Source: a virus
Virus record (IMG/VR): IMGVR_UViG_3300008113_000106
Span: 1-50,312 of that record
Direction: 5' to 3' (one strand)
Length of the DNA: 50,312 nt
Position 1 is the first letter of the stretch, and every line of letters starts with the position of its first letter. The notes beneath the pieces are model-generated. The model saw nothing but the letters and a program-made list of their open reading frames with translations. It was not told the origin of the DNA and ran no database searches. The position numbers were made by a program, and so were the translations under genes. Of the stretch, positions 1-48,293 are shown in pieces.

Positions 1-1681
1 TTTCTTTAGTCATGTGCATACCGTAATCACGATTGACCGTACTATTAGGATGGATATCTGTTAAAAAAGACGGAGTACGCTCTAATAGTCTAGATCCTTC
101 GTTCTTTTCTACACAATGTTGGATAAAACCATAATCCATGTTTTCACATAGAGTTCTAGCATTGTAGTACTTTAAAAGAAGTTTAGTTATCTCATACCAC
201 TGCTCAATTTTTTTAGGTCGTCCAGTGTACGCAGCAACTACAATATTTTGCCACCCTTCTCCTTGAAGGTTGTGAACTCTCTTATAAATATAAGTTGAAC
301 CTAGGGACGTTGAGTATTGGGCTTGTGATTGTTTATAGGGGTCAGTTCCTGCAGTATAAAGACCATAAGGCGCATCTGTAATTGGGTATTCCCAAATTTG
401 AATAGCTCCCTCAATTGGATCATTAGGTTTTGCAGGGAAATTTTGTACAGGTTTTTTGTCTGTAAATTTATGTTGAACACGGCCTTCTTTATTCAGGTAC
501 AACTCTACGACATCCCCCTGAATCTCATTAGCCATTAAACTACTTAGTTGGTCTTGCAATAAATCAACAGGAAATATATTTTGAGATAACTCTAAGAAAC
601 ATTCCTCGTGAGTTAGTGGGTAGTACATTACTTCTTTTAAGTAAGCCTCTAGACCACTTGATTTTTTGATTTGTTCTCTGGATTTTAAAATTAAATCTTT
701 TCCTTTTTGTTCGTCAGATACCCAAATATTTATATTATCTAATTCTGACTGATCTGGCTTTTCTAGAAATAAACCTAGTGGAGTAGATTCTTTCGGAACT
801 TTTAAAGAACGTGTGCCTGGAATAAATAGACCGTAACTTTTTCCAGACTCATGTACATCTACGGGTAAAAAATTATATGCTTCAGGGTTATTAAAGAGTT
901 CTTCAAGATCCCCCGCTTTTGTCATATCTCCTGAAGTCCCAATGACGAAAGGAGAACAACGCCATCCATATGGACTGTCAAAACATGGAGTAGTTGCCGC
1001 CAAGCAGTTAAGAATTTTTCCTTTACCTCCTTCTTCCAAAAGAAAAGAAGAAAGAGTAAGACCAGCAGCTGCTTCCGTATTGTTGCCTTCGTCAAAGTTT
1101 CTGACGTGGAATTTAGACCATTCATTTCTTGCACTTGTTTTTTTATCTTTAAATCCTAATGTAACTAATTTTTTCCAATCGTCCTCAATTCTTGGGAATC
1201 TAAAAAAATCAGGAAGATTACGTAATCCTAAATCTACATAATCTGTAATTACTTTTAAGTCAGGACCATTAAGGGCTGAGATAAGATTATCTGAGCCTCT
1301 TTGAGTAACTGCCTTATGTGCAATATATGAAGATGTTAATACAGATTTAGAGATACGACGACTTCCTACCATCACAACTCCTTTTTTACCATCTTCGTGG
1401 TTTTCAGCATTTCTTATAGTTTCATCCACAGCTAAGTACGTGTCCCATAGTTGTGGCCTGTCTAACTTACGTACTTGGCGTTTTCCTTGCATAGTGTCTA
1501 TATAAATAGACCACATGTTTAAATGCCAATAAATAAAAGGAGAAAAGTAGAAACCATTAATTGTTACTCCTTCTGTAATTTTTTTATCTTCATTCTCCCA
1601 GAAAGGTGTATACTCAGAAGACTCCACATCAGGAGTACTTCTCATATTAATTAAAAATTCTGGAGAATCTAGATTATACAT
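1..1681 (-). CDS. terL: Terminase large subunit (partial, C-terminus beyond window)
   Basis: This is the packaging motor ATPase/nuclease that drives DNA into the prohead. About 560 residues are present; the gene starts at an ATG whose first base is 1681 and runs off the left edge. Visible motifs are a Walker A-like GSRRISKS (residues 106-113), a Walker B FLLEE (about 213-217) with a catalytic Glu pair, and a coupling motif GTSGD (about 248-252). RuvC-type nuclease acidic positions appear in AGTDPYKQ (Asp near 447) and LCENMDYG (Glu near 513). The P-loop is non-canonical (no GKT), as in many diverged phage terminases. It follows the 105-aa gene by only 5 nt, as expected for a packaging operon. 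The TerL call is confident; the edge truncation is from the window, not a mutation. Confidence 0.9.
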   Translation of the reverse strand, partial: MYNLDSPEFLINMRSTPDVESSEYTPFWENEDKKITEGVTINGFYFSPFIYWHLNMWSIYIDTMQGKRQVRKLDRPQLWDTYLAVDETIRNAENHEDGKKGVVMVGSRRISKSVLTSSYIAHKAVTQRGSDNLISALNGPDLKVITDYVDLGLRNLPDFFRFPRIEDDWKKLVTLGFKDKKTSARNEWSKFHVRNFDEGNNTEAAAGLTLSSFLLEEGGKGKILNCLAATTPCFDSPYGWRCSPFVIGTSGDMTKAGDLEELFNNPEAYNFLPVDVHESGKSYGLFIPGTRSLKVPKESTPLGLFLEKPDQSELDNINIWVSDEQKGKDLILKSREQIKKSSGLEAYLKEVMYYPLTHEECFLELSQNIFPVDLLQDQLSSLMANEIQGDVVELYLNKEGRVQHKFTDKKPVQNFPAKPNDPIEGAIQIWEYPITDAPYGLYTAGTDPYKQSQAQYSTSLGSTYIYKRVHNLQGEGWQNIVVAAYTGRPKKIEQWYEITKLLLKYYNARTLCENMDYGFIQHCVEKNEGSRLLERTPSFLTDIHPNSTVNRDYGMHMTKE

Positions 1682-2780: not shown

Positions 2781-3234
2781 ATAATCTTTTTAAATGTTTC
2801 TCTATGTGTGAAAGTTTTGCTTCTTTATTGACATATACTAAGTCCCTAATTGCGTCTGCCTTTTTTATTTTAGTTAATCTAATTCTTAAACTCCCTAAAG
2901 CCTTTTCTAAAAAAGCATATCTAGAGTAAAAATAAGGAGTCGTAAGCCATCCTCTGTCGTTGCCGTTTATAAAGTCTTCATAAGCGTCTTCTAAGCCCGT
3001 AACATGTCCTCTCATGTATCTTAAAGCTGCACCGAAATCTAATTCAAATCTTCCCAGATTTTTTAAATAGACTTTGAGTGTAGGTTTAAGAATCATATCC
3101 TCCAGTGTTTTATTTAAATACCAATTATAAACTGTTTCAATATCATTAATAGTGTGGCCAGACTCTTTTGCTACTTCAGAGTATAAACCATAAGATCTGT
3201 ATTCTATTTCTTTCTGATTCTTAAGAGGTAGCAT
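2686..3234 (-). CDS. Hypothetical protein, 182 aa, packaging-side operon
   Basis: A helical, basic protein (LRIRLTKIKKADAIRDL region) with an acidic Gly/Asp C-terminal tail (DGGDGDESSE). It overlaps the wHTH gene upstream by 14 nt and the zinc-ribbon gene downstream by up to 95 nt. The N-terminal part (YSEVAKESGHTINDIETVYNWYLN) resembles a DNA-binding or adaptor helix bundle and is another candidate for a terminase small subunit, since such proteins carry N-terminal HTHs. This is only a suggestion. Confidence 0.6.
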   Translation of the reverse strand: MLPLKNQKEIEYRSYGLYSEVAKESGHTINDIETVYNWYLNKTLEDMILKPTLKVYLKNLGRFELDFGAALRYMRGHVTGLEDAYEDFINGNDRGWLTTPYFYSRYAFLEKALGSLRIRLTKIKKADAIRDLVYVNKEAKLSHIEKHLKRLYEPIQRIPEHELKRSPEHRQSDGGDGDESSE

Positions 3235-3583
3235 CTTCTTCAGAATTAACTGGAATTTCGGTTTCTTGTACTCTAGTTGATAATTCTAAAGTTAAAATAG
3301 CTCGAGTCTTTCCTGCGGGAACAAGTCTTCTGTTGACTACATTTCTTTCTAAGACTCCTAGCTTTCTTAACTTTGTAATTGCATTAGATATAACTTGGGT
3401 AGATGTATCATTTATTTCAGCCAAAGACTTTTTAATATCTTTGTTAATTGTACCATAGTAAGAACTATGTGCTAATATGCTAGTATATAGATCTGATAAT
3501 CTATATCCTGCAAGTCTTAGCAATATGTCAATATAGGCTTGGTGCAATTCTACACCCCCGTCGTATCTTCTTGCAACTTTCAT
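3221..3583 (-). CDS. Winged-helix DNA-binding protein, putative regulator
   Basis: About 120 aa when started at the ATG at 3583. The segment from about YYGTINKDIKKSLAEI through ISNAITKLRKLGVLERN reads as a winged helix: a recognition helix after a short turn, then Arg-rich wing residues (NRRLVPAGKTRAILTLEL). A longer frame to 3676 adds a hydrophobic, AT-coded N-terminus that would lie upstream of the promoter at 3602-3631 and is unlikely to be translated. The gene is the first in the terminase operon and sits just beyond that late-type promoter. It could regulate late transcription or bind packaging DNA; which is unknown. Confidence 0.7.
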   Translation of the reverse strand: MKVARRYDGGVELHQAYIDILLRLAGYRLSDLYTSILAHSSYYGTINKDIKKSLAEINDTSTQVISNAITKLRKLGVLERNVVNRRLVPAGKTRAILTLELSTRVQETEIPVNSEEDATS

Positions 3584-3601
3584 TTTTTGGTTGGTTTTAT
3601 T

Positions 3602-3631
3602 CAAAGATAACATCATAAAATAAAAAGTCAA
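3602..3631 (-). promoter_or_regulatory. Bacteroidota-type promoter for the terminase operon
   Basis: On the minus strand TTGAC (3627-3631) is followed after exactly 17 nt by TATCTTTG (3602-3609), fitting the TANNTTTG -7 consensus. The first gene starts 18 nt downstream at 3583. The same arrangement with the same spacing recurs at 5815, 11510 and 16248. Confidence 0.65.
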
Positions 3632-3693
3632 GTTAAAAGTTATAACAAGAAAGATTAAAGTTAAATTTATTAACAATAAAAGTTAAAGAAGTG

Positions 3694-3724
3694 TTTAGTT
3701 TTTCAAAAACATTTTATATATTTG
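3694..3724 (+). promoter_or_regulatory. Plus-strand promoter for a non-coding transcript
   Basis: TATATTTG at 3717-3724 fits the Bacteroidota -7 box. A TTTAG at 3694-3698 lies where a -33 element would be. It points into the structured region at 3.73-4.05 kb, against the direction of all neighbouring genes. Confidence 0.5.
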
Positions 3725-3730
3725 CCTCGG

Positions 3731-4053
3731 CACCGCTTCCAAGCGACCACCTGTGAGGGCCAAAAGGTAATTAGCAGGTTAGAAGTCGGATAGTAGTCTA
3801 CGGGATTGTAATAATATCCAAGCATAGTGGATGAGGTTTCTCCGATAGTGTCAAAAAAGATAGTTCTTCGAAATACACAGTGCCATACCCTAGTAAGAGG
3901 ACTAGGCAAGGGGTGGACAAAATATGGACTTATCGGGAAAGCCTGTGATGACTTTCTGCGGTATTTGGTAAACAAGTATACTTGTAAGACTGCTGTGTAA
4001 TAAGAATACTATTAAATAAAAATACCCCAGCAAACATGGTTTGCTTAGGGTAT
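3731..4053 (+). ncRNA. Candidate structured non-coding RNA, about 300 nt, unassigned
   Basis: No credible protein is encoded here in either direction. The stretch is richer in G+C than its flanks, has a plus-strand promoter-like box just upstream and a strong terminator at its end. Short complementary segments are dense: CGCT/AGCG around 3734-3745, an ACCTG/CAGGT pair, a TCGGA/TCCGA pair enclosing about 47 nt, a perfect CCTAGT-AAGAGG-ACTAGG hairpin nested in a CCA/TGG plus CCC/GGG helix, and the 14-bp palindrome ACAAGTATACTTGT. I could not match it to tmRNA, RNase P, 6S or group I intron landmarks. Strand is inferred from the promoter; exact ends are approximate. Confidence 0.5.
4022..4053. 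terminator. Bidirectional rho-independent terminator
   Basis: The stem ATACCC + AGCAAAC pairs with GTTTGCT + GGGTAT around an ATG loop, with a small internal bulge. On the minus strand it is followed by TTTTTATTT, ending the lysis-type cassette; on the plus strand it can end the transcript starting near 3731. Confidence 0.8.
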
Positions 4054-4076
4054 CCCTATGTTTAAAATATACTAAC

Positions 4077-4445
4077 TTATTTCAAACGCTGAATTTCAGC
4101 ATTTATCTGATGAGCCGTAAATGTGGCCTTCATTCCTATTCCTGCTTCCCAGCGTTTTACTTCTACACCGTCTTTAAAATAGATTACAGTGGGAAGGGTG
4201 ATAATTTTATGCTTTGTTTTTGCTTGCGTGTTTTTAGCTATATCAATTTCGTGATAGGAGTACCATTTAATTGCATCCAGTCCTGTTACATTAGGAGAGG
4301 TATTCCAGCTAGCATTAAATTGGGCTAGTACATACTTGCTACTAGCAGGGTTAAATAGTGGTCCAGGTTGTTTAGTCTCTTCTGTCAAAATTGCAGCAAA
4401 TAGTGAGATAAAAATTACACTAAAAATTCCGAGTATTGTTTTCAT
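4077..4445 (-). CDS. Membrane-anchored/secreted thioredoxin-fold protein lacking CxxC
   Basis: 122 aa with an N-terminal hydrophobic segment (residues 3-20) that can serve as a signal or anchor. The rest follows a thioredoxin pattern: strand VLAQFNASW (39-47), then WNTSPN where WCGPCK would be, a DI strand (EIDIA, 66-70), and the cis-Pro strand LPTVIYFKDG (84-93). Both redox cysteines are absent, so disulfide exchange by the usual mechanism is excluded; a binding or scaffold role is more likely. It is the last gene of the cassette with the lysin and holin-like genes and ends just before a strong terminator, 4 nt after the next gene. The fold call is fairly sure, the role unknown. Confidence 0.7.
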   Translation of the reverse strand: MKTILGIFSVIFISLFAAILTEETKQPGPLFNPASSKYVLAQFNASWNTSPNVTGLDAIKWYSYHEIDIAKNTQAKTKHKIITLPTVIYFKDGVEVKRWEAGIGMKATFTAHQINAEIQRLK

Positions 4446-4449
4446 ATGA

Positions 4450-4755
4450 TTAGTTTTTTTCTTCTAGTCTTTTAATTCTTTCTTCGTGACCCTGTAATGT
4501 TTGGCGAGCAATTTCGTCTTTCATTTGGTACTCTTGTCTAGAGGGAGGCCAAGTTTCTTTAGCAGCTGGATCAGCAGGATCTACTTGATAGAAGCCTTTT
4601 CCAGGCTTCAGTGCGTTAACTTTCTCTTCGATACGAGCATCAATGCTTGAATCAAAGGCATACCAACCTCCGATAAGAGAAGCAACTCCTACAACAATTC
4701 CTGCAAGTGTTTTAATACTTATCTTAAATTTTAAATCTTCGTTTATTTCTTCCAT
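4450..4755 (-). CDS. Single-TM protein with C-terminal coiled coil; possible inner-membrane spanin
   Basis: About 101 aa from the ATG at 4755 (a GTG at 4764 would add three residues). A transmembrane segment (roughly residues 14-33, LAGIVVGVASLIGGWYAF) is followed by a polar region with a Pro-rich stretch and a charged C-terminal helix (HEERIKRLEEKN). This architecture, in a cassette with lysin and holin-like genes, resembles Rz-type inner-membrane spanins, but no outer-membrane partner with a lipobox is visible beside it. Confidence 0.6.
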   Translation of the reverse strand: MEEINEDLKFKISIKTLAGIVVGVASLIGGWYAFDSSIDARIEEKVNALKPGKGFYQVDPADPAAKETWPPSRQEYQMKDEIARQTLQGHEERIKRLEEKN

Positions 4756-4821
4756 TGTAGACACGATTACCTATATATTTAAATTGAAAATAAAAAACAA
4801 TAAATAGAATTACGACCCCAT

Positions 4822-5493
4822 TTACTTCTTATTAACAGGCTTTGAACTAGCCTTACGAACAGTATCTTTCTTCTCTCCTAGTACTTTATGTTCAGGATAA
4901 ATGTCAGAAGATTCAAGTAAAGTATAAGTAAAGCTATTTCCGTGAATTGCTGAAGCTTGTTTAATGATCTTCATAAACTCATCAAAATCTCTTTGTTTCT
5001 TAAATACTTGGCAACCTTCAGACCAATTTTCTACAAACGTAGAATCTAACCCAGCTTTGTGAATATTAATCCCACAATTAGAACATTCAGTAATTTTATC
5101 TTTGTCAAACTCAAGGTCACGGTCTCCATCACGATAAAGTTTTAAATTACCTATTTGACGTAATGCTTGGTATTTACCTTGATGTAATCCGATAGCATGT
5201 GATTTACGATATTGACCTGGAACTAAGAAAGCCACACCACCTACAGCTTTGCCTTCTAACATACCTTTTTTACCAGGTTCAGTAGTTGCTTGCCACTGGT
5301 GAAATTTCCAAACACCGTACTCCTTGTAGGCCAAAGTAATAGTATCATCAAATACATTAGTTACTTCACTTCCTGTAGCTACGTTACGTACTCCAATGAT
5401 GTTTACATCATAGCTTTTATTTGCGTCGTCGTTAAACCAAACATATTTTTTGTCGGCAACGGCTTTTTTGATTATATCTAAACTGTAATTCAT
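4822..5493 (-). CDS. Putative endolysin with L,D-transpeptidase-like active-site motifs
   Basis: 223 aa. A central domain contains GINIH (residues 141-145, His145) and, 13 residues later, WSEGCQV (157-163, Cys161). The order His...S-x-G-C is the catalytic signature of YkuD-type L,D-transpeptidases, which act on peptidoglycan peptides. There is no signal peptide, so a holin or other route would be needed; the 98-aa holin-like gene lies 2 nt upstream. The C-terminus is Lys-rich (RKASSKPVNKK) and may bind the wall. Phage proteins of this sort are usually read as lysins, but bond cleavage versus exchange cannot be told from sequence. The motif is clear, the role inferred. Confidence 0.65.
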   Translation of the reverse strand: MNYSLDIIKKAVADKKYVWFNDDANKSYDVNIIGVRNVATGSEVTNVFDDTITLAYKEYGVWKFHQWQATTEPGKKGMLEGKAVGGVAFLVPGQYRKSHAIGLHQGKYQALRQIGNLKLYRDGDRDLEFDKDKITECSNCGINIHKAGLDSTFVENWSEGCQVFKKQRDFDEFMKIIKQASAIHGNSFTYTLLESSDIYPEHKVLGEKKDTVRKASSKPVNKK

Positions 5494-29423: not shown

Positions 29424-31376
29424 ATGCCTTTAGAAACAACAAGCTTGTCCGAAATATCTATGAGTATTTTGGACCCATTTTCCGATGAATTCCTCTTCAA
29501 AGTAGCAGAAGTAAATGAAAAACTTGCTACGATAGAAGAAAACACTTTTAATAGCTCTAAAGTAAGAAAGAAGCGAGCTATTACTCCAAAATTTTATTTA
29601 GACAAACCTTTAATTAAAAGGTTAGAAAAACTTAAAAAAACCACTGAAGACACTGACGTATTAAATATTATAGATGCTTTGTTGACAAAAACAAGACAAG
29701 AAAACAGCAGTATAAATTACTTAGGCTTATCAAGAGATGACTTTTCTAAAATTTCTTATATGGATACAGCTCGTGTTGACAGGTTCAAAGATGAAACTTT
29801 CACAAAAGTTTATCTTAAAAGTGGTGCAACTATTAAGGTACATAGACGAGTAAGAAGATTTAATTACTCAACTAGAGATTACTCGGAAATCGAAACATAT
29901 GAAAGTTTAAAAATAACCTCTAGTAGGGTAGGTACTCCTATAGTTTGTGAAAAATCAGAAGATGGATACTATGTATTACCTCCAGAAGCAAGAGTTAATT
30001 TTTATAGCAGAACCCTGATAGGTGTTTTACAAAGTACAATACTCCAAGACGGTCGAAATGTACTTCACTTTGAAAACAGAATATATAATGCTTTATCTAC
30101 TACTTTCGAGGTAGACTTAGTACCTGTTACCCAATCTATGCTTTGGAACCCCGATAGAAGATATCACTCTAGTGTGGGCAAAGTCGTTAGGAAAATCTTC
30201 GGAAATCAATTTAATGATAATGCAATCTGTAAGTTTGCTGAACAGTACTTCCAATTAATAGTAGTTAATGATAACAACTATGATTTAATTTTTGCTGAAG
30301 GTACCGATATAAGAAAATACTATCATCAAGATAGTTATTTACCTGCAAATAGCTCACAGTTGTGGAATTCTTGTATGAGATATCAGCAATGTAGAAATTA
30401 CTTCAGAATGTATGAAGAAAATCCTAATTGTAAGTTGGCTGTATTACTTTATAAACCTAAAGGCGGTACTCAGGCCTTAGTATCTGCAAGAGCACTTATT
30501 TGGAGTAACCAGCAAGGTAACTTTGTTGATCGTATATACTTTTATAACACTAAATCAGAAGCAATTATGAAAAATCAATTGCTCTCAATGGGTTACAAGA
30601 GTATGCGTGAAGGAAGAGTAGGCTATTATAATAATGTACCTGTGGAAATTAATGCACCTATAATGGATACTTTAATAGAAGAAAATGCAGAATTTCCTTA
30701 TGTAGATAGTTTACGATACTATGATCCTGCTAGAAAAGTGCTTACTGCCGATACTCCTCCAAGTAATGTATACGCTTACTTTTCACAAACAGGCGGAGGC
30801 TTCGATAGCAGGGGTATAGATAGAGCCCCTGTAGAAAACGAGTCTGAATGTGGTGCTTGTGGTCGTCATCTACACGAGGATGATATGTATTACATCGAAA
30901 GAGGAAGAGCTGAAGGAGAATATCATTGCGAAAACTGTGCTGTTTGGATAGACGGAAGAGATATCTATGTAGATGAGAGAGATGCAGTAAGAGATTTATA
31001 TGACGAATACATTTATGTAGACGATGCTGTCTCTTTATGTAATGGTTTATTTATGCATCAAGATTGTGCTGACCTTGCAGAGTATGAAAATAACTATGGA
31101 TATTTCTCTACAGATGATAACAGATTTGCATATTCTGAAATTGATGGAAAATATTACCATCCATCAGACCCATTCTTATTGTCTTTAACTATAGAAACAG
31201 AACAAATCGAAACACAAATCGAAACACAAATTGAACAAATTAACGAAACAAACCATGAAACAAACCAACCAACTAACACACCTACCTATGGAGAATCTAT
31301 CTCCTGCGCAACCTCAAATACAACATCAATTACAATTAACACCAACGGCTCAGTCAACCTACTCGACATCCTCTAA
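29424..31376 (+). CDS. Large phage protein with C-terminal zinc ribbon, 650 aa
   Basis: The central part has SQLWNSCMRYQQCRNYFRMY ... NCKLAVLLYK ... ARALIW (about 310-370), a pattern I know from large uncharacterised phage proteins (a SCMR block, then a strand, then RALxW). Residues about 475-504 hold CGACGRHLH ... CENC, a zinc-binding knuckle, with aromatic repeats after it. The C-terminal 60 residues are low-complexity Gln/Thr/Asn/Glu-rich and overlap the next gene. It heads an operon with the metallopeptidase. I cannot assign an activity; a nucleic-acid-binding or virion role are both possible. Confidence 0.65.
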   Translation: MPLETTSLSEISMSILDPFSDEFLFKVAEVNEKLATIEENTFNSSKVRKKRAITPKFYLDKPLIKRLEKLKKTTEDTDVLNIIDALLTKTRQENSSINYLGLSRDDFSKISYMDTARVDRFKDETFTKVYLKSGATIKVHRRVRRFNYSTRDYSEIETYESLKITSSRVGTPIVCEKSEDGYYVLPPEARVNFYSRTLIGVLQSTILQDGRNVLHFENRIYNALSTTFEVDLVPVTQSMLWNPDRRYHSSVGKVVRKIFGNQFNDNAICKFAEQYFQLIVVNDNNYDLIFAEGTDIRKYYHQDSYLPANSSQLWNSCMRYQQCRNYFRMYEENPNCKLAVLLYKPKGGTQALVSARALIWSNQQGNFVDRIYFYNTKSEAIMKNQLLSMGYKSMREGRVGYYNNVPVEINAPIMDTLIEENAEFPYVDSLRYYDPARKVLTADTPPSNVYAYFSQTGGGFDSRGIDRAPVENESECGACGRHLHEDDMYYIERGRAEGEYHCENCAVWIDGRDIYVDERDAVRDLYDEYIYVDDAVSLCNGLFMHQDCADLAEYENNYGYFSTDDNRFAYSEIDGKYYHPSDPFLLSLTIETEQIETQIETQIEQINETNHETNQPTNTPTYGESISCATSNTTSITINTNGSVNLLDIL

Positions 31377-32793
31377 CTATAAAGCAAGAAGAGATTACAA
31401 AGAGGTGGAACACGAGAACTTAATCGTAGAAGATTTTGGAATTGATTTCAATTTACTTTCGAGCATTATGTACCAACAAGCTCCTACAGGAAGTAAATAC
31501 GAAGCTGTTAAAAAAGATTTTCTAATCAATTTACTTGAAACTACATTAAGTGATGTAGAAATTTATGAAAAAGAAGGTAATATTTATGCAATTAAAGGAA
31601 AAGCAGATAATTATCCTACTATCGTAGCTCATTACGACACAGCTCAAGAGTATCACCCTGGCTTAGAGATTATCGTAAGAGGTAGTTGGATGTTTGGCTT
31701 TGACACAGTAGAGGCTGAACAATGTGGTATTGGTGCCGATGACTCTGTAGGTGTTTATTTTGCTATCGAAATGCTTAAGCGTCTTGATGTCTGTAAAGTA
31801 GCTTTATTTTACGGTGAAGAAAGAGGGTGTATAGGTTCTGGCAAATGCGATATGGACTTCTTTGAAGATAGTTCTATTGTAACACAGCTTGACAGACGTT
31901 CTTACACCAACGACTTTATTAATTACACTAATGGTGTTACTACTTTTAATAAAGAACATTGTAAAGCTATTACTCCTTTACTAGAGAAATATGGTTATCA
32001 TCTTAATTCAGGTAGTTGTACTGACGTAGGCAAACTTCGTCAAAGAGGACTAAAAGTATCTTCACACAATTTATCCTGTGGTTATTTTAACGAACACACT
32101 GACAGAGAAATCATCCATATTCCAAGTATGAATAATGCTTGCATGTTAGCTTATGAATTACTTAACAAAGTTTATTCTGAAAACCTTGTATTTACTTTTC
32201 CAGAAGAAGTTAAAGTAAACTATTCTGATTCTTGGTCAGGTAGTGTAGATTTAGATTATTCTTTTTATAGTAAAAAAACGGTGTTCGAAGATGATAATGA
32301 GTTGGATTCTTGGAATAATTCATTTAAAGCTACTTCTAGTGTGTCTGAAGGAGACGGTTATGAGTGGGATAGATATTGGGGAGTAATGACTAAAAATGGA
32401 ATGATAACAAGTAACTATTTCAGAGATTTTTTTCCTATTCTTGAAAAAGAAGAACTCTTAGAAGAGTTTGGATATCTTTCAAGATCTGAAGAAAAAACTC
32501 TAGAACTAGTAGAAGCTGCTCTAGTAGATGCTGTATTTTATTCTTCGTTCTTTGAAAAACACTATTCTACATTTCAAGACATAACAGAAAAAACTAATGT
32601 AGAAATAAGAGAATGCATTCAAGCAGGCGAATGTCCTTGCTGTGGAACAAGAGCGAATAATCTTCAATATCATCCAGAAATGAATGTAACCGAGTGCATG
32701 TATTGTGGAAGTACTTATTATGTGGATTTCGACATGATGTCGATTGAAGATTTACCTATGGACAGAGGGCAAACTTTTGTACTTGACAAATAA
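31288..32793 (+). CDS. M20-type zinc metallopeptidase with C-terminal zinc ribbon
   Basis: 501 aa from the ATG at 31288, which follows an AACCAACTAAC leader inside the previous gene; upstream starts would lengthen a low-complexity tail. Zinc and catalytic residues of the M20 family are all present in order: HYDTA (His115, Asp117), GADDSVGV (Asp151/152), GEERGCIGS (general base Glu177 and ligand Glu178), LDRR (Asp202), and EHTDRE (His270). A Cys4 zinc ribbon CPCC ... CMYC lies near residue 449. M20 enzymes are amino- or dipeptidases or deacylases acting in the cytoplasm. Phages seldom encode one; substrate unknown (peptides or a conjugated small molecule). Confidence 0.8.
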   Translation: MENLSPAQPQIQHQLQLTPTAQSTYSTSSNYKARRDYKEVEHENLIVEDFGIDFNLLSSIMYQQAPTGSKYEAVKKDFLINLLETTLSDVEIYEKEGNIYAIKGKADNYPTIVAHYDTAQEYHPGLEIIVRGSWMFGFDTVEAEQCGIGADDSVGVYFAIEMLKRLDVCKVALFYGEERGCIGSGKCDMDFFEDSSIVTQLDRRSYTNDFINYTNGVTTFNKEHCKAITPLLEKYGYHLNSGSCTDVGKLRQRGLKVSSHNLSCGYFNEHTDREIIHIPSMNNACMLAYELLNKVYSENLVFTFPEEVKVNYSDSWSGSVDLDYSFYSKKTVFEDDNELDSWNNSFKATSSVSEGDGYEWDRYWGVMTKNGMITSNYFRDFFPILEKEELLEEFGYLSRSEEKTLELVEAALVDAVFYSSFFEKHYSTFQDITEKTNVEIRECIQAGECPCCGTRANNLQYHPEMNVTECMYCGSTYYVDFDMMSIEDLPMDRGQTFVLDK

Positions 32794-47920: not shown

Positions 47921-47926
47921 CTTTTG

Positions 47927-48293
47927 TGGAGATGAGGGGACTCGAACCCCTGTCCAGATAAAGTCGCAATCTAATGTCTCTTACACGCTTAGTACTATCA
48001 TATTGTTGGTATCAACAAAATGATCTGCACCGTAAGGGTTGACCGAAGTCAGATTCCACCACTTGGTTTAGGTCCAAGAACCTTAAATTACCATTTTCTG
48101 TTCCAAGGGATGGCTCCCCGTAACTTAGGCTGCCATTTGATATTCGTTCACGAATTCAATAGCATTCTCAAAAGTCATTTCAGATAATTCTACGTTGCCG
48201 TTTAATTGTTTTAATACGTGATTATAGAGAACAGTACCATCTCTCTGCGTGAACATTAAACCCAATCAATCCTGTCGATTCCAATTCATCCCC
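47927..48293 (-). ncRNA. ssrA: Transfer-messenger RNA (tmRNA), phage-encoded
   Basis: Minus-strand RNA of about 367 nt: 5' acceptor GGGGATG pairs with 3' CATCTCC (one G-T), and the 3' end carries the T arm TTCGAGTCCCC. Between them lies a reading frame preceded by TTAAAC, equivalent to the resume signal: starting at GGC it encodes 24 residues beginning GNVELSEM and ending VNEYQMAA-stop. The end MAA resembles Cytophaga-like tags. tmRNA frees stalled ribosomes and tags the proteins for degradation. The CCA is not encoded. Very few phages carry this gene. Confidence 0.9.

Follow-up and report, generated by a model that had tools for sequence, protein, structure and literature searches.

The window, by which we mean the whole virus record of 50,312 bases analysed here, carries a conserved structured RNA on its plus strand at 3729-4003, and we are practically certain that this RNA is real. 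It was recognized by nhmmer homologues, a covariance model match, and covariation; its structure and strand are conserved, it is spread over several phage lineages, and it keeps its place beside the packaging operon. The RNA lies in an intergenic stretch without a conserved gene (3677-4076), whose G+C content of ~0.41 exceeds the 0.28-0.36 of its flanks, in agreement with the G+C-rich non-coding stretch described in an earlier reading of the letters alone (the sequence-only reading). That reading had also proposed a structured plus-strand RNA of no assigned family, which is now strongly supported by covariation, a conserved promoter-like box, and the absence of an Rfam match. Its suggestion of an antisense RNA to the late genes found no support, because the RNA is intergenic and overlaps no gene.

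Covariation and the two-domain fold

The support for a structured RNA is comparative, since single-sequence folding of the locus was by itself non-significant (plus strand, -92.5 kcal/mol, z = -1.67; minus strand, z = -1.42). A covariance model scored the window RNA at 122 bits (E = 3.8e-31, searched in its own record). Helices were drawn from the alignments first and pairs were counted afterwards; the structure was thus derived from part of the same sequences, a circularity that the controls and the divergent set reduce without removing it. In the main alignment of 22 sequences, equivalent to about seven effective sequences, the nine-helix structure comprised 41 pairs, with 97.9% of pair cells standard and 21 of the 41 pairs changed on both sides at least once. 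The score for covariation was 0.337, compared to 0.158 for shuffles, and none of 500 shuffles reached 0.337. When the partners were slid by 1-3 columns, the score was 0.029-0.061 and pairing dropped to 32-46%. The covariation among homologues near terL that the sequence-only reading had suggested looking for is therefore present, far above controls. The core alignment, which has the window among its 25 rows (23 distinct), was 96.5% paired, with 20/35 pairs changed on both sides. Every pair of helices H3 and H7 was changed on both sides and never broken, and helices 5 and 6 of the pair counts, both small, were weak. The strongest mutual-information pairs were mostly helix pairs. Further pair types were no more numerous than in shuffles, which is expected because pairing restricts types.

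Compensatory changes at this level already refute a chance structure or a protein-coding stretch, either of which we regard as extremely improbable. The non-significant single-sequence fold would fit the former, and a mechanical ORF listing does place a 90-aa minus-strand ORF (3703-3975) across the locus. This ORF has no match in Pfam or PHROG, and homologues of the locus differ by gaps of 1, 2, and 4 nt in the clade alignment.

Domain 1 (3729-3852), whose helices are kept in the clade and in divergent phages, is closed by H1 (GGCAC 3729-3733/GUGUC 3848-3852) and holds H2, H3, and H4. Three of the four pairs of H2 (CGCU/AGCG, 3734-3745) and all five of H3 (ACCUGU/GCAGGU, 3749-3779, 100% paired) were changed on both sides. 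An unpaired AGAAG at 3781-3785 links H3 to H4 and is invariant in the clade alignment and also in the divergent set, whose loci were fetched with a pattern containing AGAAGT. H4 spans 3786-3845 with a variable distal part; its proximal arms (UCGGA 3786-3790/UCCGA 3841-3845), 100% paired, are the TCGGA/TCCGA long-range pair seen from the sequence alone, now supported by covariation, and read UCGGG/CCCGA and UCGGU/ACCGA in other members. Between relatives L003 and L005 (4418-4523 in both), the RNA cores were identical except for two facing segments across distal H4 that had changed together, and L159 and L356 showed the same joint exchange. This suggests a swapped three-dimensional module. Mutual information in the same alignment used for counting (A5) made one extra pair in distal H4 plausible (columns 81/105) and yielded no convincing pseudoknot.

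Domain 2 (3875-3998) is supported by covariation, with its window arms read from the sequence. It is closed by H6 (ACACAG 3875-3880/CUGUGU 3993-3998), of which 3/6 pairs were changed on both sides in alignment A5, where it was numbered helix 7. In the clade, H6 rests on this pair count and on inspection, because the automatic stem finder chose spurious stems in several members. All five pairs of H7 (3883-3927) were changed on both sides and 100% paired: the arms are CCAUA 3883-3887/UAUGG 3923-3927 in the window, CUCUG/CAGAG in L003, UUGCG/CGCAA in L163, and CCCUG/CAGGG in L196. The CCTAGT/ACTAGG hairpin noticed earlier corresponds to H8 (3889-3894/3901-3906), with 3/5 pairs changed on both sides. 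It is followed by a conserved bulge (3907-3922) with GUGGACA, invariant in the clade alignment, which may be a binding site. The H9 region and then a conserved UUUGG occupy 3929-3970; the H9 arms differ yet pair in each relative by inspection, which stands in place of pair statistics because the aligner misplaced H9. The 14-nt palindrome ACAAGTATACTTGT pointed out in the sequence-only reading is present at 3972-3985, inside an insertion. It is not a family feature, since most relatives lack the insertion; L023 and L025 have one at this position with a different sequence.

Distribution in the lake-phage clade and in divergent phages

We searched IMG/VR with the neighbouring proteins and then performed a nucleotide search of those loci; further clade loci came from searches with TerL, the first operon gene, and DNA patterns. 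The RNA was found at the same place in dozens of contigs, with ~28 distinct sequences that form one clade; in the nucleotide search, it ran opposite to the packaging genes. The clade is a group of lake phages with contigs of up to 119 kb. Its TerL has 29% identity to that of Cellulophaga phi17:2, ~40% to Leptolyngbya phage Lbo-JY46, and ~28% to crAss-like phages. The covariance model gave one match per record in nine of ten clade contigs and one in the window, and no credible match in the whole records of Cellulophaga phi17:2, csAssE-Sib, cr272_1, and Leptolyngbya Lbo-JY46.

A clade-only model (R1) matched ten further contigs, L429, L430, L431, L432, L433, L434, L438, L448, L450, and L455, with E values from 3e-13 to 1e-4 when searched in the loci; L432 and L438 carry identical sequence. 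These loci had been fetched by patterns limited to the AGAAGTY and GATAGTGYC segments with the letters directly adjoining them, so the AGAAGT and GATAGTGYC letters are no independent evidence. The 5' arm of H1 and both arms of H3 lay outside the patterns. The H1 5' arm was complementary in all ten contigs, and H3 had at least five pairs in all of them except L433, where a clear H3 was absent; examples are ACCCG/CGGGU, AGCUUU/AAAGCU, UUCCUUC/GAAGGAA, and GGGUU/AACCC. No H2 was found in L434 or L433. H6-like long-range arms occur 3' of domain 1, for instance UGGUUCAGAA/UUCUGAACUA in L429, and the sequences of the L429 group remain alike over ~320 nt. Judged from these sequences, domain 1 is the core shared by several phage lineages, and domain 2 varies between lineages. 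There were 20 tRNA matches in the L433 record and 22 in that of L455, and the array is ~0.5 kb away from the RNA in the former and ~1 kb in the latter; in clade genomes, the number of tRNAs is 0-3.

BLASTn, which is weak for such an RNA, detected no homologue of family members among 50,697 annotated phage records and none of the window copy among 72,556 plasmid records. No credible copy passed strict filters in 395 Bacteroidota genomes, where two weak matches (22-23 bits) without domain 1 were rejected. These absences are soft because of the weakness of BLASTn and the strict genome filters. A pattern scan of genome contigs returned at least 118 stretches, and none of those fetched scored as a homologue in profile searches. 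The literature within our scope, main texts open without subscription, contained no description of the RNA; a human-microbiome survey lists thousands of candidate RNAs in its supplements (PMC8040213).

Promoter-like box and packaging neighbourhood

Boxes of the TAnnTTYG type are the -7 box of Bacteroidota promoters. The window has such a box (TAnnTTTG), TATATTTG, at 3717-3724 on the plus strand, as pointed out in the sequence-only reading, and it is conserved before H1 in the clade. TAnnTTYG starts 12-15 nt 5' of H1 in 26 of 28 clade members, compared to ~1% of shuffled upstream sequence. With this box just before H1, we infer that the 5' end is at H1 and that transcription starts near 3729. 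Downstream, a hairpin at 4022-4053 corresponds to the bidirectional terminator proposed in the sequence-only reading. A T-run is present on the minus strand alone, so that the hairpin best fits an intrinsic terminator for the minus-strand operon whose last gene is at 4077-4445 and a two-way role is weak, though it may also end the RNA. A similar hairpin is kept in L023/L025. The protein of 4077-4445 appeared thioredoxin-like by eye, with no PHROG or Pfam match.

On the other side, a 560-aa open frame cut by the left window edge (2-1681, minus strand) matches the N-terminus of the terminase large subunit, so the locus is indeed at the head of the terminase operon, as had been read from the sequence; TerL of relative L003 belongs to phrog_6681, terminase large subunit. 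The first gene of the packaging operon is at 3221-3583 (minus strand) with a conserved start at ATG 3583 (MKVARRY...) in an alignment of nine homologues. The listed start, TTG 3676 for 3221-3676, is probably wrong, as homologues begin with MKVARRY. A promoter-like site for this operon, TTGACT-16-TATCTT at 3604-3631 (minus strand), overlaps a TATCTTTG box, and chance yields about as many such sites.

Wherever a contig includes TerL, the RNA is 1-10 kb upstream of it, mostly divergent. The TerL match is ~4-5 kb from the RNA and divergent in G014, G015, G017, and G018; G016 and G020 have both on one strand, with TerL 3.6 and 9.6 kb downstream of the RNA. L430 has a terminase of another family (phrog_9), and its RNA lies just upstream of the terminase genes in divergent orientation. 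The close relative L370 keeps the operon and TerL and lacks the RNA, with ~130 nt between the first packaging gene and the next gene and no covariance model match anywhere in its 78.7-kb record, so the RNA can be lost. At ~4000-4140, L370 also lacks the 87-90-aa ORF that precedes the RNA in other relatives.

The window neighbours of the RNA are all on the minus strand. The claim that all neighbours read the opposite way holds for the window only, because many relatives have an 87-90-aa ORF on the RNA strand between the RNA and the packaging operon. This ORF (4587-4859 on the minus strand in L003, and equivalents) is just upstream of the RNA and has no PHROG match; Cellulophaga phi17:2 gp076 is of similar size in a comparable place, beside a tRNA cluster. 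Elsewhere in the window, two long plus-strand ORFs (29424-31376 and 31231-32793) overlap by 146 bases; the latter matches the phage peptidase family phrog_4191 and the former weakly matches very large phages.

Candidate roles and comparison with known phage RNAs

We consider the RNA to be probably a free-standing, trans-acting phage RNA. The locus would be a gene for a structured non-coding RNA of ~275-330 nt, transcribed from its own Bacteroidota-type promoter with a start at or beside H1. The transcript would fold into domain 1, the putative shared core in which H1 closes H2, H3, and H4 with the invariant AGAAG and CCGAUAGUG, and into the lineage-variable domain 2, closed by H6 and containing H7, H8, and the GUGGACA bulge. 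It would most likely act in trans during infection as an RNA or as an RNA-protein particle, with the unpaired AGAAG and the bulge as candidate contact or binding surfaces. Among the more specific hypotheses, the leading one links the RNA to packaging or late expression; what favours it is position only, and we give it a fairly low probability.

As a special case of the trans-acting reading, whose estimate it does not exclude, the RNA could bind terminase or portal and aid the motor as phi29 pRNA does. Such a role is possible yet doubtful: in the clade, the RNA lies upstream of the operon with TerL, in G014-G018 and G020 it is separated by 3.6-10 kb from a TerL on its contig, and it adjoins terminase genes of another TerL family in L430, but L370 has TerL and the operon without the RNA, no Rfam model including pRNA matched, and synteny in lineages with related TerL may be simple inheritance. 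A standalone gene with a host-type promoter box and conserved unpaired segments would also suit a small regulatory RNA pairing with messages of the phage or the host; what is mainly conserved, however, is a complex fold, and we think this role unlikely. The RNA is followed by genes of its own strand in L433, L434, L430, L450, and the L429 group, and in some divergent phages it could thus act as a leader. For the family, a cis-acting leader or antitermination element is quite unlikely, given the RNA's own conserved promoter-like box and the clade genes 3' of it, which are convergent or absent from the RNA strand. Hypotheses on the function of the RNA are directly testable because the RNA is short, has a defined fold, natural variants, and a lineage with loss, and keeps a constant place by the packaging genes; it is short enough for probing and cryo-EM. 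It is a rather improbable prospect that an undescribed RNA family across unrelated tailed phages, tied to the packaging region, would provide a second, independent RNA part in packaging or late assembly. If a packaging role were true, this would be, to our knowledge, only the second such RNA after phi29 pRNA.

We know of few phage-encoded structured RNAs whose folds are conserved, and the function of most is open. The pRNA of phi29 binds the prohead and is needed for DNA packaging. Like it, the present RNA is a small structured phage RNA, but only its gene position links it to packaging, it lacks an Rfam match, and it is carried by phages unrelated to phi29. At the gathering thresholds of Rfam 15, the hits in the window, in seven loci of the clade, and in eight divergent ones were all to tRNA or tmRNA and lay away from the RNA; when the locus and two divergent members were searched permissively, scores were at chance level only. 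The sequence-only reading had recognized no known family, and the Rfam search it proposed agrees. Genes for tmRNA and tRNA are likewise phage-encoded structured RNAs and both occur in the window, but the RNA locus matches neither model; ARAGORN and Rfam found tmRNA in the window only at 47926-48293 (minus strand). This tmRNA has the tag peptide GNVELSEMTFENAIEFVNEYQMAA, and matches above cut-off also occur in G003 and G007. A likeness of conserved segments to RNase P was dropped, as these segments are parts of H4 and H7 and pair differently there.

The cabRNA of staphylococcal phages is a structured RNA transcribed from a region inside terS-terL, and no sequence homology links the cabRNAs of divergent phages (PMC10686824). 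The present RNA is also a structured RNA of the terminase region, but it is intergenic and conserved. GOLLD is an RNA of phages and prophages with an elaborate fold and unknown function, often near tRNA islands, with one universally conserved part and a second that is less conserved, and ROOL is phage-encoded, often near tRNA islands, and has no known protein partner (PMC12286853). Like GOLLD and ROOL, our RNA is phage-encoded, and its fold is elaborate; as to tRNA islands, the picture is mixed, with long tRNA arrays beside it in the divergent members L433 and L455 and few or no tRNAs in the clade genomes. Many GOLLD RNAs exceed 800 nt (PMC12286853), whereas the core here is 275 nt in the window and ~320 nt in the L429 group; the window, clade, and divergent loci gave no match to the GOLLD model at Rfam thresholds, nor is there an Rfam match to ROOL. 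We therefore read the RNA as a new family, comparable to GOLLD and ROOL in kind and not by homology.
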